From Armatimonadota bacterium (GTDB lineage Bacteria > Armatimonadota > UBA5829), in contig JBDKUO010000020.1 in the NCBI GenBank assembly GCA_039679645.1, positions 1 through 64,000 on the forward strand: a stretch of 64,000 bases of DNA, written 5' to 3'. Under the pieces are notes generated by a model. It ran no database searches. It was not told the DNA's origin and saw only the letters and a list, made by a program, of their open reading frames with translations. The position numbers were made by a program, and so were the translations under genes. Shown here piece by piece: positions 2,207 through 33,622 of the stretch (its first letter is position 1; each line of letters starts with the position of its first letter).

Positions 2207-4234
2207 ATGAGTGTAAAGGCAATTACAGGAAAATTTGCCTCCAGGTTATCGTTAGCGCTTGTGATTGTTATGGTCTTGTCGATCATAACTCCAATATACG
2301 CGACCGAGGGTGCAAAATCAACCCAATCGGTGGCAATTTCAAGCTTTACCGATACTGCCGGAAACCTCTATATCAATGCCGGAAGAGGAGAGGGCATTCA
2401 TGTCGGCTCTAAAGGCAGCATAGTACAAAACGGAATGAAAGTTGCCGACTACGAAGTCGTGCAGGTCAATTGGGGCATATCCAGAATTGCGATTTCCAAC
2501 CGTGCCGAAGGAACGACAATACGCGCAGGCGACGAAGCTCCGATTACAAGCATCCCTCAAGTCAAAAAGAAATCCTCCAAATTCAAAAAATGGATATGGT
2601 GGGCGCTGGGCATCGGTCTGGCAACATATCTGCTTACCAGAAATCACGGCGGCGGCAGCTCGGACAGCGGCACCGGGATCACTCTCAAAGCCGAAAAGAC
2701 TACCAGTTACAGCGACACAAATGGCGACAGCAGCGTTGTTACTATAACCGCCGCCATTAGAGACGCGAACGGAGACCTGGTCACTGATGGCACAAGGGTC
2801 GATTTCTCATCTACAGTCGGCACGCTCAATCATACGACGACTGTGACATCGGGTGGAATCGCAACCGCAACGCTGACCGGCAAGACAACGGACAACAATG
2901 CTGTAGTTAAAGTCACATGTAATGGCTCGACAGCAAGCACAACAGTTTCCTTTGGGGTCAGTATCAAGCTGGAGGTAAGCCCCGCTACAATTCAAATAAC
3001 AAATGGCGGCGGCACCGCAACTTCATCTACGATCAAGGCAACCTGCTCCGACGCACAGGGCAACGCGGCGACCAGCGGCACCGTGAAATTCACTGCAAGC
3101 GTAGGAACGCTCAGCAATGACAGCGTCTCAATATCCAGCGGTGTGGCGACCACAACTCTTACCAGCACTAAGGCCGGCAGTTCCACTATAACGGCGACAT
3201 GGTCGGGCACTTCAGCGACCGATACAGTCAAAGTTACGGCGGGGCCGCCTTATTCCATCAGCCTCAGCAGCGGTAGCAGCAGCCTTTCATGCGACGGTAA
3301 CTCTAATGCTGCAATAACCGCGACCGTTAAGGATTCCGGTGGAAACCTTGTTACCGACGGCACTGTTGTGAACTTCAGTGTGGCGACGGACAGCAGCGGA
3401 GGAGTAAACGGCAGCATTACCTCGCAATCGGAGACTTCAAATGGAATCGCCACAGCATCGCTGGTCACAAAAGACTCAAGCGGCAACAAGAGCACACCGG
3501 GCACTGCAACCGTCACGGCTGCCGTCGCGTCCAGTCAGTCAGGCGACGTGCCTGCGCCAGCTTCCGGCTCCGGTGTCAGTGCTACAACCACTGTAAAGTT
3601 CGTGTCGAGCGAAGTCGGAAGTGTAAGTGTGAGCGCAGATAAAACAAATATCAGAGGTCTGGATATTGTCGGCAACACAACTACCCTGACGGCAATTGTC
3701 GCCAATACGCAAGGGGACGCAGTTCCCGATGGCACGGCAGTCACGTTTACGGCGACCCATGGCATGATCTCCAATACCACTACGACAACAAATGGCAAAG
3801 CTACCGCAACACTGACCTCGAACGCAAGCGGTGGAGACGGCAACGTGACAGTGACCGCAACAGCGGGCAGCATTACAAGCAGTTCCGTGACGGTGATTTT
3901 CTCCGGGGCCCCCGCCACAGCCAACTGCAGCGTCGAAATATCGCCCGATACGCTGGCAAGCTCCGGTGGACAAGCGGTGATTACGGTCACAGCCAAGGAT
4001 ATAAACGGCCACGCAATGGTTGATGGCACGGAAGTCACATCTGCAACCAGCAAGGGCACATTGTTGTCCTCAACTGCTCAGACAAGTGACGGCATGGCCA
4101 CATTCACGCTCTCGACAAGCACTGACTCCGTCACCCCGACTGAAGCGGGAGCAGGCACAGTGACCGTTACGATACCTGCCGGCGGAGCAGGCTCTAGTGT
4201 GACACTTACGGCCAGTTTCGAAGTCCTAAAATAG
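2207..4234 (+). CDS. Cell-surface protein with tandem Big_1/invasin-type Ig domains
   Basis: A 675-residue exported protein. A signal peptide (about 1-33) is followed by a small beta-rich domain at about 45-110 (GRGEGIHVGSKGSIV) that resembles the C-terminal domain of FlgT-like proteins. A hydrophobic helix at about 128-143 (WIWWALGIGLATYLLT) comes next. From about 160 to the end come five Ig-like repeats marked by the Big_1 signature D-x-x-G-x-x-V-x-DGT-x-V, a Ser/Thr/Gly-rich beta sandwich seen in invasins and intimins. AGGAGG sits correctly before the ATG. The next gene, an LptD-like protein, carries the same domain and follows after a hairpin, so the two may form an envelope or adhesion unit. 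The role is inferred only from domain type. Confidence 0.8.
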   Translation: MSVKAITGKFASRLSLALVIVMVLSIITPIYATEGAKSTQSVAISSFTDTAGNLYINAGRGEGIHVGSKGSIVQNGMKVADYEVVQVNWGISRIAISNRAEGTTIRAGDEAPITSIPQVKKKSSKFKKWIWWALGIGLATYLLTRNHGGGSSDSGTGITLKAEKTTSYSDTNGDSSVVTITAAIRDANGDLVTDGTRVDFSSTVGTLNHTTTVTSGGIATATLTGKTTDNNAVVKVTCNGSTASTTVSFGVSIKLEVSPATIQITNGGGTATSSTIKATCSDAQGNAATSGTVKFTASVGTLSNDSVSISSGVATTTLTSTKAGSSTITATWSGTSATDTVKVTAGPPYSISLSSGSSSLSCDGNSNAAITATVKDSGGNLVTDGTVVNFSVATDSSGGVNGSITSQSETSNGIATASLVTKDSSGNKSTPGTATVTAAVASSQSGDVPAPASGSGVSATTTVKFVSSEVGSVSVSADKTNIRGLDIVGNTTTLTAIVANTQGDAVPDGTAVTFTATHGMISNTTTTTNGKATATLTSNASGGDGNVTVTATAGSITSSSVTVIFSGAPATANCSVEISPDTLASSGGQAVITVTAKDINGHAMVDGTEVTSATSKGTLLSSTAQTSDGMATFTLSTSTDSVTPTEAGAGTVTVTIPAGGAGSSVTLTASFEVLK

Positions 4235-4240
4235 CAACCA

Positions 4241-4276
4241 AGAATATCGAGGCCCGCAACCGGGCCTCGATATTCT
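4241..4276 (+). terminator. Perfect 16-bp inverted repeat between surface genes
   Basis: Arms 4241-4256 and 4261-4276 are perfectly complementary around a CAAC loop. There is no downstream T-run (ATTAAAG follows), so it may be a factor-dependent or partial terminator, or an mRNA stabilising hairpin, between the two Big_1 genes. Confidence 0.6.
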
Positions 4277-4293
4277 ATTAAAGAGAGGCGCAA

Positions 4294-6321
4294 GTGTCAT
4301 CCTTCAGGGTCGCTATATTCTTGCTGATAGGGCTGGCTTTGTTGACTCCACTGCAAGCCGGTGCGGCTGTTTTCGTCTCAGTTGAAGCAAATCCGTCAAT
4401 AATCCCGGCTGACGGCAAGAGCCATTCGCAAGTCCTTGTTACAATCCTCGATTCCAATGGCGCGCCGGTCTCTGACGGCACCGAGGTGCGTCTGACGACC
4501 TCAGCGGGCGATATAACCGCAGCAGTCTATACATCCGGCGGTCGCGCCGTCGGTATTTTGACCTCCGCACAGTGTCCTCAGATCGCAGTCATAAACGCGA
4601 TAGCAAACGGCGGATCGGCCTCGGCTCAAGTTGAGTTCTCGTCTTCAGCCGGTTACGAGGAGGCAACCGCAAGCGCCAGAGCAATCCGTATGGAAGGCGG
4701 ATCGCTTGCATATTGTGTGGACAAAGACACAGTGCTTGCAAGCAGCGGAGTGACTATTGAGTATATGGGTCTAACTATAAAGGCCAACGCTGCTCAGGTG
4801 TCTCAGAAGTCGGGTCGAATCCTCGCTCAAGGTGACGTGACTGTCAGTAAAGGCGATACAAGCGTAAGAGCCGATGCTCTTATATGCAATACTCAAAATG
4901 ACACTATTCGCCTGCTCGGCACAGACGATAAAAGCGGAGACAAAACGTATGATATTGCGCTTGAACCGGTAGGTTCAAAAGAGACCGACGGTGATCCCGG
5001 ATTTGTGCCGCTGTCGGATGTGGACGGTAAAACATGGATAGTATCCTCAAGACTCGTCTTGATCCCGCGCGATAAGATATTGTTTTTCAAAGCCTCCATA
5101 TATGTGGGCCGGGCGGAGATCCTCAAGGTGCCTTATTATTCCTACAGCTATGAGAAGCGAGAGTCCATCCTTCAACAGGTTCGTTATACTTCCGATGATG
5201 GGATGCTCGTGGACCTGCCTCTGTATTATCAGATGTCCGATTCGGCGACCGGCGCGCTCAAGCTTCGCTATGCGGCGGACGGCAGCGATACAGGCGGTTA
5301 CACCAGGCCCAGAAAGGGTCTGAGTCTGGGTCTGGACCAGGATTATTCTATGGGTGAGAGCGGGCAGGGCAGAGTTTTCATCGACTCGGTCGGCAACTCA
5401 TCTCAAGCGCTGGAGGTCTCACATCACTTGGAGTTCGGTTCGCTGCTGACCGGCGGCAGGGCAGACATATCGACTCGCTATCAACCGTCTTCTACCTATG
5501 CCAAAAATATATATTACACGACGCTCAATGTGGCTGGCAGCATGAGCAGATACAATTATTCACTCACCGGATACTTCGGGGGCAGCAGTGTCCGGGAATA
5601 TGTTGATAATTGCCTTGAATATGTGGGGCAGTCAAACTGCACCGTAAAGGCAGTGTTCAGTCCTGCGGCCTTCAAGAGTAGTGGCAGACCATCACCCAGT
5701 TACGCCCTGGGCTACGGCACTCTCTGGACTGAATCCGACGAGGCTACATCTTCCTGTCTTTATCAATCGTTTGGGCTCAGATACAATCGCGCTGAGTCGG
5801 GGGATGGCAGATTCAGAACGGGCTTTGAGGCGATAACGGCTTTGACAATGACGGCCGATGCGGATATGGGCGCAAGCCTGAGAGCGGGCCCGACCCTGCG
5901 GCGCATATGGAATGGCGGCAATGCGTCCATCGGTTATACTCTAAATGCCATGAGCGGCACCACTGAGAGTATTTCAACCCAAGGTGTGCATCAGCTTATA
6001 TGCAGCCTGTTTTTGAGCGGGGGCAAGTGGAATTCCAACTCATCAGCGGGCTATGGGTTGGACTCAAGACGCTTGAGCCTTATTTCAAACCTCAACTTGC
6101 GTCCGTCAAAGAATTGGCGGGCAAGGTGCAGTTATAACCTCTATAGCTATGCTTACAGTCTCAATGATATCGGCTATCGCTATATAAATTCGTATCTGAA
6201 GGTTGGTCTGTACCACCCGTTGGGGCCGTATGAGATCGGCATCGCCTGGTCTCCGGACGGCCAAAACTACGGTATCGACAAAGACAAGCGGTTCTGGCTT
6301 GAGTTAGGCGGCAAATCTTGA
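4294..6321 (+). CDS. LptD/OstA-like outer-membrane protein with N-terminal Big_1 domain
   Basis: A 675-residue protein beginning with GTG behind AAAGAGAGGCGCAA. A signal peptide (about 1-25) is followed by a Big_1 Ig domain at about 28-115 (DGKSHSQVLVTILDSNG, SDGTEVRL). An OstA/LptD N-terminal beta-jellyroll follows at about 140-225 (GLTIKANAAQVSQKSG, ILAQGDVTVSKGD). The rest, about 260-675, is an aromatic-rich alternating pattern typical of an outer-membrane beta-barrel and is compatible with the LptD barrel. In the known pathway LptD inserts lipopolysaccharide into the outer leaflet. An Ig domain ahead of the jellyroll is not part of the classical architecture. No lptE or other lpt gene is in view. 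It could instead be another OstA-domain porin. Confidence 0.72.
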   Translation: MSSFRVAIFLLIGLALLTPLQAGAAVFVSVEANPSIIPADGKSHSQVLVTILDSNGAPVSDGTEVRLTTSAGDITAAVYTSGGRAVGILTSAQCPQIAVINAIANGGSASAQVEFSSSAGYEEATASARAIRMEGGSLAYCVDKDTVLASSGVTIEYMGLTIKANAAQVSQKSGRILAQGDVTVSKGDTSVRADALICNTQNDTIRLLGTDDKSGDKTYDIALEPVGSKETDGDPGFVPLSDVDGKTWIVSSRLVLIPRDKILFFKASIYVGRAEILKVPYYSYSYEKRESILQQVRYTSDDGMLVDLPLYYQMSDSATGALKLRYAADGSDTGGYTRPRKGLSLGLDQDYSMGESGQGRVFIDSVGNSSQALEVSHHLEFGSLLTGGRADISTRYQPSSTYAKNIYYTTLNVAGSMSRYNYSLTGYFGGSSVREYVDNCLEYVGQSNCTVKAVFSPAAFKSSGRPSPSYALGYGTLWTESDEATSSCLYQSFGLRYNRAESGDGRFRTGFEAITALTMTADADMGASLRAGPTLRRIWNGGNASIGYTLNAMSGTTESISTQGVHQLICSLFLSGGKWNSNSSAGYGLDSRRLSLISNLNLRPSKNWRARCSYNLYSYAYSLNDIGYRYINSYLKVGLYHPLGPYEIGIAWSPDGQNYGIDKDKRFWLELGGKS

Positions 6322-28331: not shown

Positions 28332-29573
28332 TCATCCTCGCACTCTACGCAGTTTCGAAGCAGCGAGAGCTATTACCGCCATTGCCAGCGATACAAATGC
28401 GGATGGCTCAGGTGTGGATGGATTTGATGACGCGACCGGACCCGTGAATTTTGATAGCCTTCCCTCCGAGTCCATTACGAATATACTCCCATCGCTGCCG
28501 ATAGTCGGAGAAGTGTAGATAGTCGCCCCAACGCTCCTGCTCCAGTTGAGCGAGCCGTTGGTGGGGTTTATGGACAAAAGACTCCCGCTGGATGTGCCGA
28601 ATATAATGGTTCCATTTGCGTCAAGAGTGGGCGAAGAGTATATTGCTGCACTGGTTTGGTAATACCATTTCAGCGTGCCATCGGGGTTTATCGCGTGCAG
28701 ACGAGTGTCCTGAGCGCCGATATATATCGTTCCATCGGCTCCGACGGCGGGTGCTGTCGTTATAGCCTTTCCCTGAGTAGGGTATGTCCACTTTGTCGAG
28801 CCGTCTGCATTTAGAGCCACAAGTGAGCCACTGGATGTGCCTACGTATATCGAGCCGTCGGGGCCGATCGCGCAGTTGTTGCTTGGGTTTATCACAGCCG
28901 ATTTCCAGATGAGTGTGCCGCTTGAGCTGACGGCGTAAATTCGTCCGTCCTGTGATGGCGCATATATTGCATTACCGTCAGCCGACATCGAAAGGGCGCG
29001 GGTAACATCTCCATCCGTGTAATAGCTCCACTTGATCGTCCCAGTAGCATCGATCGCATAGATACGGTTGTTGTCTGAGCCTACATAAAGCGTTCCATCT
29101 CTTCCTATCAACATGGAACCGTTTACGGCTCCTGATACGGCGCATTGTGATGACCAATTCGATGTTCCATCTGAATTGAGCGCGTATATTGAGCCGCCGA
29201 GGGCCGCGAAGTACACAACACCGCTGCTTGCGACGCCTGCGCTGCCTATGATGGACGAAGAGTATCTGGGCGAGCGCCACGCAAGCGATCCGCTGCCCGC
29301 TACGGCATAGAAATACCTGTCGTAAGCGCCGAAATAGGCTGTGCCGTTTGATGCAACAATCGGTGATGCGCTGCAGGTGGTCCCGGTCGAATATTTCCAG
29401 GCGAGCTGCGGCGAGTATGTTGCCGTATAGCCGATCTGTCCGGTGCGAAGCGAGTTTCCTCTATATTGTGAGACAGGCTGTAAGCAATTGCCTTGGCCTG
29501 CGAGCGCAAATACGGCGACCGTCAAGATTGAGGCGCGTATGCGGCCTCGGAAATGGGTTCTATGTATTGGCAT
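28332..29573 (-). CDS. PQQ-type beta-propeller protein with PEP-CTERM tail
   Basis: 413 residues. The start at 29573 follows AGGGTAGGGATC; an upstream in-frame start at 29630 is less likely. Signal peptide about 1-30. Around eight PQQ-like repeats follow (GTAYFGAYDRYFYAV, GTLYVGSDNNRIYAI and so on, each ending L-x-W), forming an outer-wall propeller as in BamB-like or pyrroloquinoline-type proteins. The C-terminus STPEPSAF, a hydrophobic helix and LRRVRG is a PEP-CTERM sorting signal. It is the second such protein in this window. Probably a surface or exported structural or binding protein; no enzymatic motifs are seen. Confidence 0.87.
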   Translation of the reverse strand: MPIHRTHFRGRIRASILTVAVFALAGQGNCLQPVSQYRGNSLRTGQIGYTATYSPQLAWKYSTGTTCSASPIVASNGTAYFGAYDRYFYAVAGSGSLAWRSPRYSSSIIGSAGVASSGVVYFAALGGSIYALNSDGTSNWSSQCAVSGAVNGSMLIGRDGTLYVGSDNNRIYAIDATGTIKWSYYTDGDVTRALSMSADGNAIYAPSQDGRIYAVSSSGTLIWKSAVINPSNNCAIGPDGSIYVGTSSGSLVALNADGSTKWTYPTQGKAITTAPAVGADGTIYIGAQDTRLHAINPDGTLKWYYQTSAAIYSSPTLDANGTIIFGTSSGSLLSINPTNGSLNWSRSVGATIYTSPTIGSDGSIFVMDSEGRLSKFTGPVASSNPSTPEPSAFVSLAMAVIALAASKLRRVRG

Positions 29574-29773
29574 ATTGATCCCTACCCTTGAATCGTGATG
29601 CAAATACAGCCACTGCAAAAATCGTGCCACAACGTCATTAATTGGTTATACTTATGCATATATCTACATACAGTTGAGCTGTAATTTTACGCCTTGGGGC
29701 ATGATGTGATCGAGCTGATGAATTGTAATGGCAGAGGTTGTGACAATCCGATGTAGTTTTTTGTATGTAAGGT

Positions 29774-29801
29774 TTGAAACAATGCGGTTGCTGGGTATTT
29801 T
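29774..29801 (+). promoter_or_regulatory. Possible promoter for the structured leader RNA
   Basis: TTGAAA (29774-29779) and TATTTT (29796-29801) with a 16-base spacer point toward the structured region that begins about 45 bases downstream. The match is moderate. Confidence 0.3.
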
Positions 29802-29846
29802 GCCTGGGCTGGTAAATGCGGTGGGCCAATCGGCCTATCTGCAAAT

Positions 29847-30218
29847 GCCTCAGTAAGCGTGGATACGGTTTCTAATCCGTCCCCAGAGGCCGCGGCGGAT
29901 AATCAGGGAAACCGGCCGGCGGTGAAAGCCGCATTCAACCTGTCAAGTAAAAGAGAGTGGCTGAGAAGTATGTCTTCTCAGCCGTGGCCTCCAAGAACGG
30001 TCATGGGTAGGGATCGCTTTGTCGGCCATGCGCATTGTATCCGGCTTAGGCCTGCGTGTCAAGCCTCCGATGAAGCTGTCAAGAGCCCGATTAGGAGGTG
30101 GTGTTGGTAGTCAAAACAGCCAGTCCCTCGTAAAGGGTGGGACAACCGCTTTTCCGGCAAAGGGCCGGACCGGCGGCGACGATCTTACGCGTTTGTGCCG
30201 CTCGCGTTAAGTGTCGTC
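29847..30218 (+). ncRNA. Large structured RNA candidate (possible HEARO/omega-RNA-like)
   Basis: No credible protein gene lies in 29574-30275, but 29847-30218 is packed with consistent RNA-type pairing. Stem 29959-29968 with 29974-29983 is 10 perfect pairs with a 5-base loop. The long-range stem 29886-29895 with 29982-29991 encloses other hairpins and includes one G-U pair. Others are 29865-29868 with 29877-29880; 29904-29907 with 29939-29942; 30064-30068 with 30094-30098; 30153-30158 with 30164-30169; 30173-30177 with 30197-30201; 30178-30182 with 30214-30218. Purine-rich loops such as GGTGAAAGCC recur. It could be a stand-alone HEARO-like RNA, another large ncRNA class or a long 5' leader for the gene at 30276. 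The class name is a guess; structured character is well supported. Confidence 0.6.
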
Positions 30219-30275
30219 TAGATTGTAGAAAGCGGCGCGAAAAAAATCTCTGTTTACCTCAAAGGAGGCTATACA

Positions 30276-31184
30276 ATGCGAAGGATCATTTTTCTTGTTC
30301 TGGCACTGACCTTGGTTTGCTCTGTGCCGTCATTTGCTGCTCGAGTCACAAGCACACCGGTGATTCACCGCTTCGAGCTGAAACAAGTCTGTCCGGTTCC
30401 TTTGCCGGTTCCAGGCAATGATGTCTGCCGCTGTTACCTTGGTTATCTGACAATAGCGGATCCGACAATAGGAGAACCGGTCATCAATGCCGCACCCGGC
30501 GTACTCTGTATTGTGCCTGGCGGGATTAATTGGCCGAACTATATTGCCGCTGCGCAGCAGACGCCGGCAGTATCATACACGATCAAAAATACGACTTTCA
30601 CCAAGCAGACTCCTGAGATCGTGCAGTGCGCCGATGTGTTTCCTGCGCACAAAGTGACTCAGCAGGGCACACCCAATATCAGACTGTGGTGGCCGCTCAT
30701 GTATGAGTGCCCTTCCACTGTCTTCACACTGAGTATTCTCTATGGAACCCCAGTTGCGTGGGATGATGACGGTACTGGTCCGAACCCGCCTGCATGGGTT
30801 CACCTCGAGCAGTGGGAATGGCATGTCGATGCCGATCTTGACAGCCTAAAGGAATTGCTTTACCTGTTCCATGAACTGCCGTTCGGCAAGGACGAAGTTC
30901 CGTTGATTTCCGACGAGCTGCTCTTTGGAGAGCTTCTGCACAAGATCGACGAGGCAAAGGCTGCATACACCGTAGGCGATCTTGCTACGGCAGCTCAATG
31001 GCTGGCTGACTTTGAGTTGGAAGTCATGGATGCCTGTATTATTGATTCGCCGCCTCTGCCGAATCCGACCGGTTTTCTTACGGGTATCGCCAACAGCGAC
31101 GAGAATCCGGCTTGCTGCAAGCTCCTTTGCGACGTGGAATACATTCTGCAGACCACAGGCATAGGTAATCCCAGCAAGAAGTAA
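30276..31184 (+). CDS. Secreted protein of unknown function
   Basis: 302 residues. AAAGGAGG lies at the right distance before the ATG. A signal peptide (about 1-22, ending SFAAR) is followed by a Cys-containing beta-rich domain (VCRCYLGYL, VLCIVPGGINW) and, from about 185, a helical region (DLDSLKELLYLFHELP, LHKIDEAKAAYTVGDLATAAQWLADFELEVMDAC). The pair of Cys at about 285-290 (CCKLLC) may form disulfides. I do not recognise the family. It follows the structured RNA and precedes two further exported proteins in the same direction, with GC-rich inverted repeats (GAGCCGCC ... GGCGGCTC) after its stop. Confidence 0.75.
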   Translation: MRRIIFLVLALTLVCSVPSFAARVTSTPVIHRFELKQVCPVPLPVPGNDVCRCYLGYLTIADPTIGEPVINAAPGVLCIVPGGINWPNYIAAAQQTPAVSYTIKNTTFTKQTPEIVQCADVFPAHKVTQQGTPNIRLWWPLMYECPSTVFTLSILYGTPVAWDDDGTGPNPPAWVHLEQWEWHVDADLDSLKELLYLFHELPFGKDEVPLISDELLFGELLHKIDEAKAAYTVGDLATAAQWLADFELEVMDACIIDSPPLPNPTGFLTGIANSDENPACCKLLCDVEYILQTTGIGNPSKK

Positions 31185-32084: not shown

Positions 32085-32164
32085 ATCCATTCAGCCGACG
32101 TTTTTCACGTCGGCTAAAGTTTGCAAAAAACGAGCTGTAGCTAAAACGAAAGGGGCAATTGAAA

Positions 32165-33622
32165 ATGAAAATACCGGTTTTATTGGTGACGGTGTTCCTG
32201 CTTGCATCCGTGTCTCCTTCGATGAAGGCTTCTAGGGCAAAGCCGGTTGTAGCTGTCAAGAAAATTGCGCAAAAACCGACAAAACCATCATCTCTTGTCC
32301 TGCTTTACACATCCTGCTCGCGGGGACAGATTAGATCCTGCAACTGCACGAAGTTTCAGTTCGGGGGATATGGACGTGAGATGACTCTGCTCAAGTCGAT
32401 CCGCGAGAGCAATCCCAACGTCGTGCTTATTGAGGGCGGAGATTCTACAGCCGGAGACGACTTCCAGGCCAAGCTCAAGGCGTCAGTCGCATCGAGCGCG
32501 CTTAAACTCCTCGACTATAACGCTATAGTTCCCGGCGAGTTGGAACTGGGTAGATCAGGTGTGAATTACCTTGATTATTTCGATCCAAAGTCAGTGCCCA
32601 TCCTCTGCGCCAACGTGCCTGATTTATGCAGTGGTCAGGGTGGCTATATTCCGTATGCCATATTCAAGACCCAAGGCAATCTCAGAGTTGGGGTTATCGG
32701 TGTGCTCGATGATGCTATCACCCAGGAACTAAGAAGACGCGGGATCGATCAGCCCGTGACTGACCCTGTCGCCGTGCTGGAAAAATTAGTACCACGTGTA
32801 CGTCTGCAGTCCGACCTTGTTGTAGTGGTATATCATGGCGCATCCGATACCGCGGCAAGGTTGGCAGCGGTTAAGAGAATCGATCTGGTTTTGTGCACTC
32901 ATCTAACTGGTCGTGATTTTCTTTTTCCCGACAAGACAACCAATGAAGTATGCGCTCCCGTAGACAAGGTCGGCAGCACGATTGTCGTCAAGGGCCAGAC
33001 GAGCACGAATTGGAGCCTGGGGCGAATTGACCTCGATCTCTCCGACGGCAAGATCAAGAGCGCGACTCATAAACTCTTCTATCTGGACCGGCGATACGAC
33101 GAGGATCCGGCGATGGTGAAAGTGTACGACGACTACAACAAGAAAGTAGCCGATGCCGTACTTACTCGGTCTAAGAAGATGAAAAAAGACATGGAAGTTA
33201 TGCTGGTAAGTCGCGGCCTACAGGTGAATGATATGAGAAAGCGCCTGCATACGTCGCCGTTCGCCGGTGATAAAAAGTGTAAAGAGTGCCATGCGGATAT
33301 TCATGATACCTGGTCGAAATCGCAGCACGCTCATGCCATGGCAACTCTTGAAGCTACTAATCAGGGCTTTGATCCGGAGTGCGTGAGCTGTCATGTCACG
33401 GGGGCGAATACGCGTTATGGCTTTTCAAATAAGAACGATACACCGGAGATGGTGAATGTTCAGTGCGAGGCCTGCCATGGTCCCGGTGATGAGCATTCGA
33501 AAGATCCGAAAGCGGGCTACGGACCGGTCGGCGAGGAGACCTGCCGGTCATGCCACACAAACGAACGCACTCCCGACTTCGACGCTGAGAAGGCATGGGA
33601 GACGATCAAACACCAATTATAA
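32165..33622 (+). CDS. UshA-like domain fused to tetraheme cytochrome c
   Basis: 485 residues, exported. After a signal peptide (about 1-23), residues about 43-330 follow the order of UshA-type metallophosphoesterases (VVLIEGGDST, VGVIGVL, LVLCTHLTG), but the first metal motif D-x-H is replaced by YTSCSRGQ and the Asn-His/Glu motif by PGELEL. Instead there is a conserved-looking CNC cluster (Cys 51, 59, 61) followed by KFQFGG. The C-terminus has four c-type heme motifs CxxCH at residues about 372, 406, 434 and 460, like the cytochrome c554 family. A redox role in the periplasm is likely. ATG 32165 has AGGGG at a better distance than the TTG at 32159. Related proteins sometimes carry selenocysteine; here all are ordinary TGC or TGT Cys codons. 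Confidence 0.8.
   Translation: MKIPVLLVTVFLLASVSPSMKASRAKPVVAVKKIAQKPTKPSSLVLLYTSCSRGQIRSCNCTKFQFGGYGREMTLLKSIRESNPNVVLIEGGDSTAGDDFQAKLKASVASSALKLLDYNAIVPGELELGRSGVNYLDYFDPKSVPILCANVPDLCSGQGGYIPYAIFKTQGNLRVGVIGVLDDAITQELRRRGIDQPVTDPVAVLEKLVPRVRLQSDLVVVVYHGASDTAARLAAVKRIDLVLCTHLTGRDFLFPDKTTNEVCAPVDKVGSTIVVKGQTSTNWSLGRIDLDLSDGKIKSATHKLFYLDRRYDEDPAMVKVYDDYNKKVADAVLTRSKKMKKDMEVMLVSRGLQVNDMRKRLHTSPFAGDKKCKECHADIHDTWSKSQHAHAMATLEATNQGFDPECVSCHVTGANTRYGFSNKNDTPEMVNVQCEACHGPGDEHSKDPKAGYGPVGEETCRSCHTNERTPDFDAEKAWETIKHQL

Follow-up and report, generated by a model that had tools for sequence, protein, structure and literature searches.

As shown by comparative sequence evidence, the core of the intergenic gap at positions 29574-30275 is a gene for a base-pairing small RNA (sRNA) of about 79 nt on the minus strand, with a promoter, two hairpins and an intrinsic terminator. 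All positions refer to the window, a stretch of 64,000 nt from a 3.4-Mb Armatimonadota genome, referred to below as the own genome. We consider it probable that the sRNA would block the Shine-Dalgarno (SD) region of the adjacent PQQ gene and that its gene lies within, and antisense to, the leader of a secreted-protein gene, which may sponge the sRNA. A first-pass annotation had assigned the stems in the gap to one plus-strand RNA. These stems do exist. The best-conserved segment of the region, however, sits on the minus strand, and the strand, the promoter, the function of the terminator and the target had been missed.

The gap separates two divergent genes, a minus-strand gene for a PQQ-type propeller protein and a plus-strand gene for a secreted protein of 302 amino acids (30276-31184), the latter with orthologs at the shared locus. 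A protein family search of 29574-30275 revealed no gene that fills the gap, in agreement with the earlier reading. The 302-residue protein itself had no match in Pfam or NCBIfam, and a structure model of it was discarded as unusable (pLDDT 43). Its C-terminal part of about 230 residues (window 30276-31184; L027-L046) recurs within ORFs of several hundred to about 1,900 amino acids in the same phylum. Using DNA searches, homologs of the region were identified in all five species of the own genus in the set and also in G005, a species from a second genus. The six full homologs share the same flanking genes. A shortened version of the region is present in G013, with no more than a decayed remnant of the sRNA, and in G011 and G007 the divergent gene order is kept without the sRNA. 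A 20-base core was detected in only four contigs of a collection of 84,980 species, all four among the homologs already found, and searches of phage, plasmid and viral collections with the region gave no match.

A promoter scan identified a sigma-70 type promoter for the sRNA on the minus strand (30034-30062), consisting of a -35 element TTGACA (30057-30062), a 17-nt spacer and a -10 element TACAAT (30034-30039). It matches the sigma-70 consensus at 11 of 12 positions, and TTGACA-N17-TACAAT occurs as an exact copy only once in the window. In the alignment of the six genomes all 12 hexamer columns are invariant and the spacing is always exactly 17, whereas only 1 of 17 columns in the spacer, 1 of 6 in the discriminator and 2 of 30 upstream are invariant. 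Conservation returns at GGCC/GGTC, the expected start of the sRNA, and 48 of 54 columns of the body are invariant. It is hard to account for this pattern of hexamers, spacing and body unless a promoter precedes a functional RNA. The gene is accordingly placed at 29949-30027 of the minus strand, the start being taken from promoter spacing and the onset of conservation and the end from the T-rich tail.

The predicted fold comprises a 5' hairpin (29986-30027, minus strand), with a C-rich seed GAUCCCUACCC (30005-30015) in the apical loop and upper stem, and a terminator hairpin (29959-29983, minus strand) followed by ACTCTCTTTT (29949-29958). Substitutions within the 5' hairpin fall in the loop, the bulge or the linker, or they retain pairing as G.U. 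The terminator was found by a terminator scan, which detected it in G002 as well, and all six sRNA homologs carry a T-rich tail 3' of the hairpin. A small protein encoded in the body could be ruled out, since there is no synonymous pattern and the changes in the body alter residues in the only candidate frame; the start codon of this ORF varies (ATG, ACG, GTG, CTG).

Folding energy by itself gives no strand, because the region beats dinucleotide shuffles about equally on both strands (z -2.86 for plus, -2.55 for minus). For the sRNA, with its 5' hairpin and terminator, z was -5.62 for the window copy, the other genomes giving values from -3.1 to -5.6. All 23 of its pairs are kept in the six genomes, and each of the two substitutions that fall within stems produces a G.U pair on the minus strand, where the plus strand would have A.C. 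The arms of the terminator hairpin, GGCTGAGAAG and CTTCTCAGCC, form the perfect 10-bp inverted repeat that the first-pass annotation had described as a plus-strand RNA stem. The repeat was confirmed; the hairpin, however, belongs to the minus strand as an intrinsic terminator, because an arm change in G002 and G013 keeps pairing on that strand alone (G.U on minus, A.C on plus). The long-range helix proposed between 29886-29895 and 29982-29991 can pair, with one G-U, but in most relatives this holds only for its GAGGCC/GGCCTC core, and there is no compensatory change. A further helix, P4 (30040-30051 with 30060-30072), was rejected; it lies inside the spacer of the minus-strand promoter, and only 67% of cells pair.

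A covariance model of the sRNA, searched against 291 genomes of the phylum, recovered exactly six at 99-106 bits, with the next best hit at 28. Each of the six contains one copy, at one syntenic place; five of these carriers come from one genus, so that they represent few independent events. The first-pass annotation had offered a new class of non-coding RNA as one possibility. The data support an RNA family new to Rfam in these six genomes, but in a different form, namely as the minus-strand sRNA of about 79 nt. The near-invariance of the body suggests further partners, either a protein or other mRNAs, of which none was found. A search of an open-access library yielded no sRNA studies in Armatimonadota.

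The predicted target is the adjacent gene (28332-29573, minus strand), which encodes a PQQ-repeat beta-propeller (Pfam PF13570/PF13360) with a C-terminal PEP-CTERM-like end (weak PF07589). Its start is most likely the ATG at 29573, reassigned from an upstream GTG at 29630 on the basis of the translation and the placement of the SD and of a sigma-54 promoter. A search for the complement of the seed brought up, as another site within this region, the SD context of this gene, which reads CAAGGGTAGGGATCAAT-ATG. The predicted site TCAAGGGTAGGGATCAA (29575-29591, minus strand) contains GGGTAGGGATC (29577-29587), which pairs perfectly with the seed; on the side of the sRNA the letters CCCUACCC are the predicted partner. 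Between GAUCCCUACCC and GGGUAGGGAUC of the SD region a perfect core of 11 bp and 3 bp beyond one mismatch can form (-25.6 kcal/mol). Apart from the antisense of the sRNA itself, this site was the best of 21,322 windows scanned on both strands of the 64 kb, the next independent site reaching -22.0.

Comparison of the genomes showed that the seed is complementary to the PQQ SD region and that this complementarity is conserved. Five of the six genomes carry the exact site; G002 has one A.C mismatch and a predicted duplex of -19.6. The 17-nt target block is conserved across the six while its flanks vary. Conservation of an SD alone could reflect nothing but ribosome binding; in G011 and G007, which lack the sRNA, the PQQ SD differs, the complementary site is absent and pairing is weaker (-16.6 and -12.3). 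Full-length duplex energies that ignore accessibility did not single out the site, and the case for the target therefore depends on the loop being exposed. The 11-nt seed extends into the upper stem of the 5' hairpin, and this part must open to pair. A second candidate target was rejected, a GGDEF gene (G000:C45) complementary over 19 of 20 nt, with a BLAST E value of 0.2 and an ortholog in G003 that lacks the site. The 20 or more ATGGGTAAGGATC sites in the own genome were also set aside, being part of an unrelated palindromic repeat. This interspersed repeat, ATGGGTARGGATCTCYGAATCCYTACCC, is present in at least 20 copies in the genome of the window (G000, e.g. L090, L098, L107) and in some copies in G004 (L082, L092); its partial similarity to the sRNA target is a chance one.

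The PQQ gene is preceded by a perfect predicted sigma-54 promoter, TGGCACG-ATTT-TTGCA (29614-29629, minus strand), the sole copy in the window, 41-56 nt upstream of the ATG. In all six homologs TGGCACG-N4-TTGCA is located 42-44 nt upstream of the target site, and it is recognisable in G011 and G007 as well. Because the PQQ gene has this promoter of its own, the sRNA is best regarded as a transcript apart from that of the PQQ gene. A search of five genomes, the own genome included, gave two rpoN genes in each. One of the two in G011 (G011:C178:2991-3425) adjoins the PQQ gene (3531-4694), possibly a functional link to its sigma-54 promoter.

On the plus strand, the secreted-protein gene likely has a long mRNA leader that would start near 29808, out of a conserved block A (29771-29813), although its promoter is weak. 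Block A occurs once per genome in seven genomes. It contains the candidate leader promoter TTGAAA-16-TATTTT (29774-29801, plus strand) obtained by the promoter scan, a match of only 9/12; across 7/7 homologs TTGAAA does not vary and TAnnnT is retained. A candidate helix within block A, P1, was rejected in favor of the promoter reading, since 4006 of 5040 permutations of its arms among species were equally good. The putative leader (29808-30275, plus strand; start inferred) contains the helices P2, P5, P6, P7 and P8 (29919-29923/29928-29932, 30075-30080/30106-30111, 30123-30127/30139-30143, 30153-30158/30164-30169 and 30195-30202/30231-30238), with plus-strand G.U pairs. In P5 (30075-30080 with 30106-30111) three pairs are changed on both sides and none is broken among the five sequences aligned there, and only 8 of 720 permutations of the arms among species pair as well as the true arrangement. 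P2, P6, P7 and P8 likewise show compensatory changes and plus-strand G.U, with arms that were chosen by hand, which favors them. In the sRNA, whose sequence hardly varies among the six genomes, no pair has changed on both sides.

The loop of P5 carries a conserved AGGAGGTGGTG (30093-30103, plus strand), to which GCCTCC (29987-29992) elsewhere in this leader is complementary; six pairs are possible in 6/6, without compensatory change. A hairpin CCTC-AAAG-GAGG (window 30256-30268) holds the SD of the secreted-protein gene, and its stem is invariant in seven homologs while the loop length varies. The leader matched no known riboswitch or leader family in Rfam, and the scan detected no plus-strand terminator-like site between the leader and the gene. 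Compared with the 9/12 promoter of the window, that of the ortholog in G011 and G007 (L036:898-1500, L037) is strong: a near-consensus sigma-70 promoter lies about 575 nt upstream, followed by a structured leader (z -4.36 in G011) and no sRNA. The region upstream of the orthologous gene in G021 is also structured (z -3.06). Homology of the G011/G007 leader to the core of the window was rejected because the covariance model gives no match; by eye, the two have in common only a P5-like hairpin with AAGGGGGUGGU. The suggestion of the first-pass annotation that the gap holds a long leader for the gene at 30276 is supported for the plus-strand parts outside the sRNA, with their compensatory helices, G.U pairs and counterparts in related genera.

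Could everything, the conserved core included, be explained by a single large structured RNA of the plus strand that serves the secreted-protein mRNA as a leader or riboswitch-like element? Helices P2 and P5-P8 speak for it, as do the long leaders in G011, G007 and G021 and the synteny. It would nevertheless leave unexplained the invariant hexamers 17 nt apart around a variable spacer, the minus-strand terminator with its T-rich tail and the changes that keep pairing on the minus strand only; moreover, G011 and G007 retain a long leader without the core, and we regard this reading as improbable. We also give little credence to a purely cis-acting antisense RNA that would affect the secreted-protein leader by transcriptional interference or leader cleavage, the PQQ SD match being incidental. 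Overlapping antisense RNAs are common, and the complementarity to the leader is perfect by position, but mere overlap needs no sequence conservation, yet the sRNA body is near-invariant, and the PQQ SD gives the best match in 64 kb, one that goes along with the presence of the sRNA.

It is quite unlikely that the minus-strand RNA is a prematurely terminated PQQ leader, i.e. an attenuator whose readthrough mRNA would carry its own anti-SD. Both lie on the same strand, the PQQ start following some 380 nt downstream of the terminator, and GAUCCCUACCC and GGGUAGGGAUC could pair within one molecule; the perfect sigma-54 promoter in between, in 6/6 homologs and recognisable in G011/G007, argues against it. 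The first-pass annotation had also considered HEARO, the IscB omega RNA, or another Rfam class, an assignment that now seems scarcely credible and for which only the size and the stem-rich character speak. The Rfam search it had proposed, with HEARO and other models, gave no relevant match in 29574-30275 on either strand at E <= 10, the only hits, no better than chance, being to two families of vertebrate RNAs; RF02033 was absent from the whole genome at the same threshold. A Pfam scan of seven neighbouring proteins detected no IscB-type nuclease. Like HEARO (RF02033) the element is structured, non-coding and intergenic; unlike it, it has no covariance-model match to that family, a fixed genomic position, a core on the other strand and a length of about 79 nt.

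According to the preferred reading, an sRNA directed at the PQQ SD, the sRNA would pair with the PQQ mRNA at the SD and block ribosome binding, and the PQQ gene would remain off for as long as the sRNA is neither removed nor outnumbered. Provided that the leader is transcribed from block A, the sRNA gene would be situated inside and antisense to it. By this overlap the secreted-protein mRNA would carry a perfect binding site for the sRNA and may, in the weakest step of the scheme, act as a sponge that links the two genes. Tentatively, these elements might be combined into a three-part switch, in which a sigma-70 dependent sRNA silences a sigma-54 dependent surface-protein gene at its ribosome binding site and the divergent leader across the sRNA gene sponges or blocks the sRNA; turning on one exported protein would then release the other. 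Since a specific target and pairing site are predicted for it, the sRNA is directly testable. The locus also illustrates that the folded strand may explain a 'structured RNA' less well than a promoter signature on the strand opposite.

For IsrR of Staphylococcus the binding of C-rich regions to SD sequences is established, and FsrA is described in the same report (PMC9410917). The predicted sRNA resembles these Firmicutes RNAs in the single-stranded C-rich loop stretches facing a G-rich SD and in the stem-loops followed by an intrinsic terminator. It differs in that it belongs to another phylum, no sequence relation is known or was found in Rfam, and its predicted target is the adjacent gene. 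The sRNA ChiX of E. coli represses chiP mRNA by pairing and is sponged by the chbBC intergenic region (PMC7815308). The proposed leader sponge would act as this segment of the chbBC mRNA does; in contrast to the ChiX system, it would lie in a divergent leader and match the antisense of the sRNA gene exactly, and the sponging is here only a proposal. Control of PEP-CTERM genes by RpoN is known from Aquincola (PMC9850573). The window locus is similar in that a surface protein gene of the PEP-CTERM type is predicted, from its promoter, to be under RpoN (sigma-54), and different in its sRNA, the available part of the Aquincola account mentioning no small RNA.

Two minor observations concern other sequences. 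The start of contig G013:C41 (L014:1-30) looks like a Nextera adapter (AGATGTGTATAAGAGACAG), an assembly artefact. At 32159-33622 of the window, a match to an UshA-like (seleno)protein family, under its cut-off, is fused to a cytochrome c554-type region.
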